From assembly GCA_938028765.1 (NCBI GenBank), contig CALIZF010000015.1:1-64000 (forward strand): a stretch of 64,000 nucleotides of DNA, in the 5' to 3' direction. This DNA comes from an uncultured Paracoccaceae bacterium (GTDB lineage Bacteria > Pseudomonadota > Alphaproteobacteria > Rhodobacterales > Rhodobacteraceae). This document shows positions 44,404 through 47,311 of this stretch, piece by piece. Made by a program: the position numbers and the translations under genes. How positions within the stretch are numbered: the first letter of the stretch is position 1; each line of letters opens with the position of its first letter. The notes beneath the pieces were generated by a model that saw only the letters and a list, made by a program, of their open reading frames with translations, did not search any database and was not told the DNA's origin.

Positions 44404-44417
44404 GTGATCTGGATCAT
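44404..44417. promoter_or_regulatory. FNR/FnrL-type box between ctaC and tldD
   Basis: GTGAT-CTGG-ATCAT is a perfect dyad matching the FNR consensus TTGAT-N4-ATCAA at 8 of 10 defined positions. It lies 16 bp before the tldD ATG and 162 bp before ctaC. Oxygen-dependent control of the aa3 oxidase by FnrL would be sensible, but the spacing favours an effect on tldD or a repressor position. Confidence 0.45.
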
Positions 44418-44433
44418 TGTGGAGGATCAAGGC

Positions 44434-45855
44434 ATGGACGGCGACCGCTTCGCACCTTTCCGGACGCACCTCGACGAGGCGCGCGCGCTTGCGCTTCTGC
44501 GGGGCGCGCTGGCGGGGGCCGAGGACGGCGAGCTGTTCCTCGAACGCCGCCGGTCCGAGACGCTGGTGCTCGACGACGGCCGGCTGCGCACCGCGGCCTA
44601 CGATGCGACCGAGGGGTTCGGGCTGCGTGCAGTTTCGGGCGAGGTCGCCGGGTATGCCCATTCGACCGAGATTTCCGAGGCCGCGATCGCCCGCGCTGCG
44701 GCCACGGCCCGGCTGGTCATCGGTGCGGGGGGCGGCACGCTGGCCGAGGCGCCGCCACGCACCAACCGTCGCCTCTACACCGACGCCGATCCGCTGGCCG
44801 ATGCTGACTTCGCGGCGAAGGTCGCGACGATGCGCGCGCTCGACGCCTTTGCGCGCGATCTCGATCCCGCGGTCGTGCAGGTGACCGCCAGCCTTTCGGC
44901 AAGCCTGCAGGAGGTGGTGATCCTGCGCCCCGAAGGCGGGCATGTCGCCGATGTTCGCCCGATGGCGCGGCTCAACGTGCAGGTGATCGTCGAGCGGGGC
45001 GGCCGGCGCGAGACCGGCAGCGCCGGCGGCGGCGGGCGGTTCGGCCTTGCGGGCCTGCTCGATCCCGCGCACTGGCAGGGCGTCGTGCGCGAGGCCTTGC
45101 GGCAGGCGCGCGTCAACCTCGACGCCGAAGCCGCACCGGCGGGCGTGATGGATGTGGTGCTCGGCCCCGGCTGGCCCGGGATCCTGTTGCATGAAGCGGT
45201 GGGTCACGGGCTCGAGGGCGACTTCAACCGCAAGGGCACCTCGGCCTTCGCGGGCCTGATGGGCCAGCGGGTTGCCGCGCCGGGCGTCACCGTGATCGAC
45301 GACGGCACGATCCCCGACCGGCGCGGGTCGATCACCGTGGACGACGAGGGCACGCCCTCGGGCCGGACGGTGCTGATCGAGGACGGGATCCTGACGGGAT
45401 ACATGCAGGACCGGCAGAACGCCCGCCTGATGGGCGCGGCGCCCACGGGCAACGGCCGGCGCGAAAGCTTTGCGCATATCCCGATGCCGCGGATGACCAA
45501 TACGATCATGCTGGCGGGCACCGCCGAACCGGCCGAGATCGTGGCCGACCTGAAGGACGGCATCTGGGCCACCGGCTTCGGCGGCGGGCAGGTGGATATC
45601 ACGAACGGCAAGTTCGTGTTCAGCTGCACCGAGGCCTACCGCGTCCGCAACGGCCGGGTCGTGGCCCCGGTGAAGGGCGCCACGCTGATCGGCGACGGGC
45701 CGACCGCGCTGCGCCAGGTGCGCGCGATCGGACGCGACCTGGCGCTGGACCCCGGCATGGGCAACTGCGGCAAGGCCGGTCAGTGGGTGCCGGTCGGGGT
45801 CGGCCAGCCCACGCTGCTGATCGGCGGGCTGACGGTCGGCGGTTCGGCCGCCTGA
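44434..45855 (+). CDS. tldD: TldD metalloprotease subunit
   Basis: A 473-residue protein of the TldD/PmbA (TldE) family. The zinc motif HEAVGH is at residues 253-258 in 'GILLHEAVGHGLEGDFNRKG', with 'FGGGQVDITNGKFVFSCTEA' further on. TldD and TldE form a heterodimer that degrades unfolded peptides and matures some ribosomal peptides (microcin B17). No tldE is adjacent. GGAGG lies 8 nt before the ATG at 44434; an upstream start at 44404 would lie inside the FNR-like box. Confidence 0.95.
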   Translation: MDGDRFAPFRTHLDEARALALLRGALAGAEDGELFLERRRSETLVLDDGRLRTAAYDATEGFGLRAVSGEVAGYAHSTEISEAAIARAAATARLVIGAGGGTLAEAPPRTNRRLYTDADPLADADFAAKVATMRALDAFARDLDPAVVQVTASLSASLQEVVILRPEGGHVADVRPMARLNVQVIVERGGRRETGSAGGGGRFGLAGLLDPAHWQGVVREALRQARVNLDAEAAPAGVMDVVLGPGWPGILLHEAVGHGLEGDFNRKGTSAFAGLMGQRVAAPGVTVIDDGTIPDRRGSITVDDEGTPSGRTVLIEDGILTGYMQDRQNARLMGAAPTGNGRRESFAHIPMPRMTNTIMLAGTAEPAEIVADLKDGIWATGFGGGQVDITNGKFVFSCTEAYRVRNGRVVAPVKGATLIGDGPTALRQVRAIGRDLALDPGMGNCGKAGQWVPVGVGQPTLLIGGLTVGGSAA

Positions 45856-45863
45856 CCGCGCGG

Positions 45864-45872
45864 TTATCCACA
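45864..45872. promoter_or_regulatory. Perfect DnaA box
   Basis: TTATCCACA, the consensus 9-mer for DnaA, sits 105 bp before the dprA ATG and 46 bp from the CtrA-type box. A single copy does not make an origin. Confidence 0.5.
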
Positions 45873-45917
45873 GCTTTCGGCGGCAGGACGCGGAAATCCC
45901 GGCGCGGGGCGTTAAAC

Positions 45918-45933
45918 TTAACCTCGAATTAAC
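45918..45933 (+). promoter_or_regulatory. CtrA-binding site upstream of dprA
   Basis: TTAA-N7-TTAAC matches the CtrA full site exactly, 43 bp before the dprA ATG; another TTAA lies 6 bp upstream and a GANTC site (GACTC, 45938-45942) follows. In Rhodobacter capsulatus the DNA-uptake genes needed by gene-transfer-agent recipients, including dprA, depend on CtrA, which supports the assignment. Confidence 0.7.
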
Positions 45934-45976
45934 TCCGGACTCGGCAGGGTGTGCCTGCGGATGAGGCGAGGTTGCG

Positions 45977-47311
45977 ATGGAAGAGGGTTTGTCATCTTCC
46001 CCCACACCCTTCACCCCACCCACCACGGAAGACGGCAGATTGTCGTGGCTCCGTCTCATCCGCTCCCGCCGGGTCGGCCCGGCGACGTTCCGCCGGCTGA
46101 TGGCCGAACACGGGTCGGCCGAAGCGGCGCTTGACGCCCTGCCCGCCGTTGCCCGCGCCGCGGGGGCCGCGGACTACGCCCCCTGCCCCGCGGGCGTCGC
46201 TGCCGCTGAACTCGCGCAGGGCCGCAAGGCGGGCGCGCGGCTGGTGTTCCTCGGCGCCGCCGACTATCCCCCCGACCTGGCGGACCTGCCCGACGCGCCC
46301 CCCGTTCTGTGGGTGCTGGGCGACCCTGCAATGCTCTTGCGGCCGATGGTGGCGCTGGTCGGGGCGCGCAACGCCTCGTCCGCCGGGCTGAGGATGGCGC
46401 GGCGGCTGGCGGCCGACCTCGCTCAGCAGGGGATCGCCGTCGTCTCGGGCCTCGCCCGCGGGATCGATGCGGCAGCGCACGAAGGCGCGCTCGCGCGCGG
46501 CACGCTGGCCGTCCACGCCGGCGGGGTCGATGTCGTCTATCCGGCCGAGAACGCCGACCTTGCCGCGCGGATCGCCGCACAGGGCGCCCGCCTGTCCGAG
46601 ATGCCGCCGGGCGTGGAACCGCAGGCCCGCCACTTTCCTGCGCGCAACCGGATCGTATCGGGCCTCGCCCTCGGCACCGTGGTGGTCGAGGCGGCGGAAG
46701 GCTCGGGCAGCCTGATCACGGCCCGCACGGCCGCCGATCAGGGGCGCGAGGTGATGGCGGTTCCCGGCCACCCGGTGGACCCGCGGGCGGCAGGGTGCAA
46801 CGCGCTGATCCGCGACGGCGCGACGCTGGTGCGCAGCGCCGCGGACGTGGTCGAGGCGCTCGGCCCCGCACTGGCTGCGGCGCAGGCGGCGCGCGCCGCA
46901 CGCCCCGCACCCGCGGAACCGGCCGCCGGGACCCCGGCCCCGCCCGCCCGGCTGGGTCGCCTGACCGCGGCGGCGCTGGCCGCCATCCGCGGCGCGCCCT
47001 CCCCCGCGTCGGCCCGCACGGCGGCCGCCGTGCAGGCGCGAATGGCCGCCCCCGACGCTGCCGCCCCCGGTGCCGCCGCCCGCAGCGCCGCCGCGCCAGC
47101 CGGCGCCCGGCCCGCGGCCACGGCGGCGTGTGCGGCCGATCCGCTGCACGCCGCGATCCTCGACCGGCTCGGTGCGGCGCCGCTGGCCGAGGACCAGCTG
47201 ATCCGCGACCTTGCCCTGCCCGCCGCGCGCGTTGCGGCCGAACTCCTCGCGCTGGAGCTGGAAGGCCGGGTGGAACGGCGGCCGGGCGGGCTGCTGGCGC
47301 GCGCGGGCTGA
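45977..47311 (+). CDS. dprA: DNA-processing protein DprA (Smf)
   Basis: A 444-residue protein that loads RecA on incoming single-stranded DNA. An N-terminal SAM-like region ('LRLIRSRRVGPATFRRLMAE') is followed by the extended Rossmann fold ('VALVGARNASSAGLRMARRL', 'GIAVVSGLARGIDAAAHEGA', 'EAAEGSGSLITARTAADQGR') and, after a ~110-residue Ala/Pro-rich linker, a C-terminal winged helix ('LHAAILDRLGAAPLAEDQLI'). In Rhodobacterales it is required for integration of gene-transfer-agent DNA. The CtrA-type box upstream supports that role. It lies directly upstream of topA, the usual alphaproteobacterial pair. Confidence 0.95.
   Translation: MEEGLSSSPTPFTPPTTEDGRLSWLRLIRSRRVGPATFRRLMAEHGSAEAALDALPAVARAAGAADYAPCPAGVAAAELAQGRKAGARLVFLGAADYPPDLADLPDAPPVLWVLGDPAMLLRPMVALVGARNASSAGLRMARRLAADLAQQGIAVVSGLARGIDAAAHEGALARGTLAVHAGGVDVVYPAENADLAARIAAQGARLSEMPPGVEPQARHFPARNRIVSGLALGTVVVEAAEGSGSLITARTAADQGREVMAVPGHPVDPRAAGCNALIRDGATLVRSAADVVEALGPALAAAQAARAARPAPAEPAAGTPAPPARLGRLTAAALAAIRGAPSPASARTAAAVQARMAAPDAAAPGAAARSAAAPAGARPAATAACAADPLHAAILDRLGAAPLAEDQLIRDLALPAARVAAELLALELEGRVERRPGGLLARAG

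Follow-up and report, generated by a model that had tools for sequence, protein, structure and literature searches.

A probable CtrA-activated promoter of dprA with a position-fixed architecture across the Rhodobacteraceae

The closest described system is that of Rhodobacter capsulatus, in which dprA belongs to a co-expression module with the gene transfer agent (GTA) cluster, comM, radC, and recA, and this module is reduced in a ctrA mutant (PMC4158056). The work of Brimacombe (2014, 2015), as cited in PMC6473078 and PMC10883770, describes dprA expression in this species as CtrA-dependent in connection with GTA recipient capability. Two further systems bear on promoter structure. In R. sphaeroides, the adenine at position -11 (A-11) of CtrA-activated promoters is invariant and essential, and it has been mutated (PMC6180460), and in Caulobacter, CtrA can shield GANTC sites placed over CtrA boxes from the methyltransferase CcrM (PMC5172544).

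The DNA analyzed here, referred to as the window, is a stretch of 64 kb (72% GC) from a 2.94-Mb genome assembly that is 84% complete. The original prediction had placed four motifs in the gap between tldD and dprA, and all four proved to be exact matches at the coordinates listed in Table 1; element positions such as +28 or -2 are counted from the start of the CtrA box. The clustering of CtrA, DnaA, and GANTC motifs is unusual a priori: the chance of one TTATCCACA landing in a given 121-bp gap is about 1.6e-4, and the 37 GANTC sites of the window correspond to about 0.07 expected per 121 bp. In terms of rarity, it is the CtrA site that stands out, with TTAA-N7-TTAAC found at five places in the assembly (zero for the reversed control pattern) and only once in the window, which holds just eight TTAA sites. 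Conservation tells the three motifs apart.

Table 1. Features of the tldD-dprA region, in window coordinates.
Feature	Coordinates	Strand	Remarks
tldD/pmbA-type metallopeptidase gene	44404..45855	+	upstream of dprA
tldD-dprA gap	45856-45976 (121 bp)		starts at first base after tldD stop; dprA begins at 45977
Consensus DnaA box TTATCCACA	45864..45872	+	9 bp past tldD stop; unconserved, probably incidental
Extra TTAA half-site	45912..45915	+	unconserved
CtrA box TTAAC-N6-TTAAC, TTAACCTCGAATTAAC	45918..45933	+	-59 from dprA start; overlaps -35 region
GACTC (CcrM-type GANTC)	45938..45942	+	in spacer between CtrA box and -10; at neither family hot position
Predicted -10 element CAGGGT	45945..45950	+	TAnnnT in the family consensus (+27 to +32 of box)
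Putative A-11 (+28 of box)	45946	+	family logo compared with R. sphaeroides CtrA promoters
Transcription start (inferred only)	45957	+	11 nt after A-11
Shine-Dalgarno-like GAGGCGAGG	45963..45971	+	from sequence; logo columns +47 to +53 are purine-rich
dprA (444 aa)	45977..47311	+	DprA_N, DNA_processg_A, and DprA_WH domains; TIGR00732

Of 120 family genomes, 118 yielded DprA homologs, most of them full-length orthologs, and the DNA upstream of dprA was compared across 90 genera; the sample labeled "order" consists of members of the same family only. A match to TTAAN7TTAA with at most one mismatch precedes dprA in 89 of these genera, with few exceptions at a distance of 56-67 bp from the start codon, and was not found upstream of dprA in the 90th. 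The resulting logo reads [G/A]TT[C/T]AC[C/G]-N4-[G/A]TTAACC, followed by T/A and A at +27/+28, then by a purine-rich ribosome-binding region and the ATG at +59. All 80 further named loci, including Rhodovulum, Ruegeria, Phaeobacter, Paracoccus, Roseovarius, and Gemmobacter, some of which may overlap the genus sample, carry the element at 12 bits or more, 79 of them at the expected place. The element is also specific: when 560,828 positions within and downstream of dprA coding sequences were scanned, no score exceeded 11 bits, and none of 28 other alphaproteobacterial families has such an element within 300 bp of dprA. Across 190 distinct dprA promoters, the right half-site is TTAAC in 182. The left one is mostly TTYAC rather than TTAA in the family; the perfect left half-site of the window is unusual in this respect, and its box lies at exactly -59. 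The extra TTAA at -6 of the box occurs in one of the 190 promoters, which is that of the window itself.

These observations make it very probable that dprA has a CtrA-activated promoter in the tldD-dprA gap. Strong support for CtrA control, as originally predicted, comes from the position-fixed conservation throughout the family, from the CtrA ortholog that the genome encodes, and from the published R. capsulatus data. Counting against this reading are the TTYAC form that the left half-site usually takes, the weak -10 element of the window, the LexA assignment of dprA in D. shibae, and an assembly completeness of only 84%.

An alternative that bears on the same bases is that the dprA element is an operator of the SOS repressor LexA. 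The LexA operator has the form GTTC-N7-GTTC, with the same 11-bp spacing as the element described here, and the related form GTTC-N7-GTTA is present in 15 of the 190 promoters. A published prediction for D. shibae did assign the com genes to CtrA and dprA to LexA rather than CtrA (PMC6473078). The true operator, however, occurs in only one of the 190 promoters and is absent from the tldD-dprA gap of the window, and the nearly invariant TTAAC of the right half-site carries an A where the LexA operator has C. On the right half-site we rejected the LexA operator, which we regard as very unlikely. The family logo argues for CtrA over LexA at dprA, and the sequence data give grounds for reconsidering the LexA assignment in D. 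shibae.

The architecture downstream of the box is also consistent with control by CtrA. The A at +28 is present in 81% of the 90 genera and in 157 of the 190 promoters, and it fits the A-11 of the R. sphaeroides CtrA promoters; the box would thus overlap the -35 region at a fixed spacing from a -10 element carrying this A-11, given the inferred start site. The -10 element of the window is weak (CAGGGT), and no sigma-70 TTGACA/TATAAT hexamer pair is present in the tldD-dprA promoter region. CtrA itself is encoded in the genome (G000:C13:12553-13227), scoring 426.5 bits against the equivalog NF045991 (cut-off 350); it is 75% identical to Caulobacter CtrA, and nearly identical to it in the C-terminal DNA-binding region.

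From these sequence features we infer CtrA binding, the direction of control, and the start site. Phosphorylated CtrA would bind the two half-sites, which span about -39 to -24 relative to the inferred start and overlap the -35 region, and would recruit RNA polymerase to the weak -10 element with its conserved A-11, substituting for the absent -35 hexamer. The same architecture would drive comM, comEC, and probably comF, in such a way that an active CckA-ChpT-CtrA relay would switch on DNA import together with DNA protection and recombination, in the state in which members of the family make or receive gene transfer agents.

When other DNA-uptake promoters were compared, as originally suggested, comM, comF, and comEC proved to carry CtrA-like elements at characteristic positions. 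Scores of at least 9 of 11 were obtained in 27/30, 26/30, and 24/30 promoters, respectively, compared with at most 1% of shuffled sequences, and the TAnnnT at +27 to +32, with its A as in dprA, is also found in the comM and comEC promoters. The genome's own copies are TTCACGTTTCGGTAACC (comM), TGAACGATCTGTTAACC (comF), and TTAACGGTTCGGCAACC (comEC). Within these sets (L187-L276), a separate conserved element precedes each of the three genes and deviates in one half-site in a gene-specific manner. The comF element GTTAACC (L217-L246) appears to lie inside a reading frame on the opposite strand, where it would fix the codons GTT-AAC; coding constraint may therefore contribute to its conservation, mixed with regulatory constraint.

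Other CtrA-type sites of the genome were recorded as well. A perfect site follows an mltG-like gene and precedes the GTA terminase/portal genes by 413 bp (L011:3379-3394; G000:C2:91378), and strong CtrA-like sites precede the GTA terminase in 7 of 30 relatives, several at a similar distance, compared with 2.7% in shuffles. The GTA cluster as a further CtrA target is suggestive only; GafA is the known direct activator. Two more perfect sites are located before a glycosyltransferase gene with a weak MshEN match (L012:3728-3743) and beside a gene for a Hint-domain protein (L013:3589-3604), and one more CtrA-type site is close to a PALP-family enzyme gene. Seven genomes bearing the same family label (G014, G029, G033, G059, G090, G102, and G109) contain no close homologs of dprA, comEC, comM, CtrA, or the GTA terminase. 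A co-loss of dprA, comEC, comM, and ctrA in these genomes was considered and discarded, as the GTA terminase is absent too and the genomes are probably mislabeled or outliers.

The methylation link of the original prediction can be offered as a lead for the promoter type but not as a finding on the window. The GACTC of the window, at +20 from the box start, lies off the conserved positions and is without support of its own, whereas dprA promoters of the family are enriched in GANTC at fixed positions elsewhere, namely -2 and +32 to +35. Among the 90 genera, 83 GANTC sites were counted against 41.2 expected (sd 6.5), a twofold enrichment. In the set of 190 promoters, 41 carry GANTC at -2, where independent logo columns predict about 14, 47 carry it at +32 to +35, and 81 have it at either position. 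Control words of similar composition reached totals of 46-76 compared with 174 for GANTC, and their largest single peak was 17 (GTNAC at 0), which arises because GTAAC is a variant of the CtrA box itself. The site at -2 overlaps the left CtrA half-site (GATTCAC), and GA precedes TTCA in 40 of 81 cases but TTTA in only 6 of 75 (p = 7e-9, uncorrected for relatedness). Only 6 GANTC sites were found in 84 comM, comF, and comEC promoters, about tenfold fewer than in dprA promoters. On a DprA tree of 187 rows, the GANTC state changes at least 23 times. A separate observation on the 190 promoters is an apparent covariation between positions -1 and +2 of the CtrA element (GATTCA versus GGTTTA), a pattern that makes or avoids GANTC.

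A methylation link is therefore possible for the dprA promoter type of the family. In its fullest form, this would be a dual switch of CtrA and CcrM, which adds to the CtrA-promoter reading and does not exclude it: many genera have GANTC over the left CtrA half-site or just before the start site, where CtrA and methylation may compete, or where the methylation state may gate firing after fork passage. Among the CtrA-driven DNA-uptake promoters of the family, dprA would be the only one to have gained CcrM sites, and it would have done so more than once, at two fixed positions. The enrichment and its two peaks, the preference for GA before TTCA, the scarcity of GANTC in the other DNA-uptake promoters, and the repeated changes on the tree all point in this direction, and the CtrA-shielded GANTCs of Caulobacter provide a precedent (PMC5172544). 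On the other side, the relatedness-corrected pairs follow the expected direction (2.5 to 0.1) but do not reach significance because of their small number, the GANTC of the window lies elsewhere, and the Rhodobacterales are described as giving few indications that methylation controls ctrA (PMC8116508). We therefore put forward the dual switch, and the timing of recombination-mediator production by CtrA-CcrM competition that it entails, tentatively and as rather improbable. If true, this competition would time recombination-mediator production to replication-fork passage or cell-cycle stage. PMC9836097 describes a link of CtrA and methylation with GTA biology as uninvestigated, and a search of open-access papers yielded nothing on GANTC in this promoter. 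With the dprA-specific hot positions, a link of CtrA and CcrM with GTA biology can be tested directly, and this in an order in which the role of methylation has been considered minor.

The more extensive proposal, that CtrA, DnaA, and CcrM methylation act jointly at this promoter to couple dprA expression to replication stage, depends on the DnaA box as well. All the motifs are present in the gap, and perfect DnaA boxes are rare, with four copies of TTATCCACA in the 2.94-Mb genome; yet the reversed control yields two, which places this frequency near chance. DnaA control of dprA was examined in the related promoters, where the box is not conserved, an outcome that the original prediction had named as refuting. 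With up to one mismatch allowed, it occurs within 130 bp of dprA in none of the 89 other genera (1.8 expected by chance), and the exact box is absent from all 80 named loci. Only one other exact box was found in the 170 loci, in a single genus (L067) at -146, a different distance. The DnaA box of the window is probably a chance match, and DnaA regulation was rejected, the consensus 9-mer being present but unconserved. As the GACTC of the window is also off the family hot positions, we consider joint control by replication stage highly improbable.

Returning to CtrA as the probable activator of dprA, its control of this gene is already known in R. capsulatus, and the window probably represents a further case. 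As far as the open-access literature shows, what is new is the fixed architecture across the family and the dprA-specific GANTC hot positions. What began as a motif in a single genome extends to a putative family-wide, position-fixed CtrA promoter of dprA, comM, comEC, and probably comF, and this shared promoter supports CtrA as the switch that DNA import and recombination have in common in the GTA-bearing Rhodobacteraceae.

Compared with R. capsulatus, the gene, the family, and the predicted regulator are the same, with com genes as putative co-regulated partners; the present case differs in being known from sequence alone, in the unusually perfect left half-site of the window, and in that position and architecture are documented across the family. 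The fla2 promoters of R. sphaeroides (PMC6180460) are similar in having a CtrA box near -35, a conserved A-11, and a short leader, but they belong to other genes, and at some of their sites, which serve divergent promoters, the half-sites are only 6 bp apart. Finally, the Caulobacter promoter that combines a CtrA box with GANTC (PMC5172544, Fig. 6) resembles the 41 dprA promoters of the 190 in which GANTC overlaps a CtrA half-site; the arrangement is synthetic in Caulobacter and natural here, although the window itself is without the overlap.
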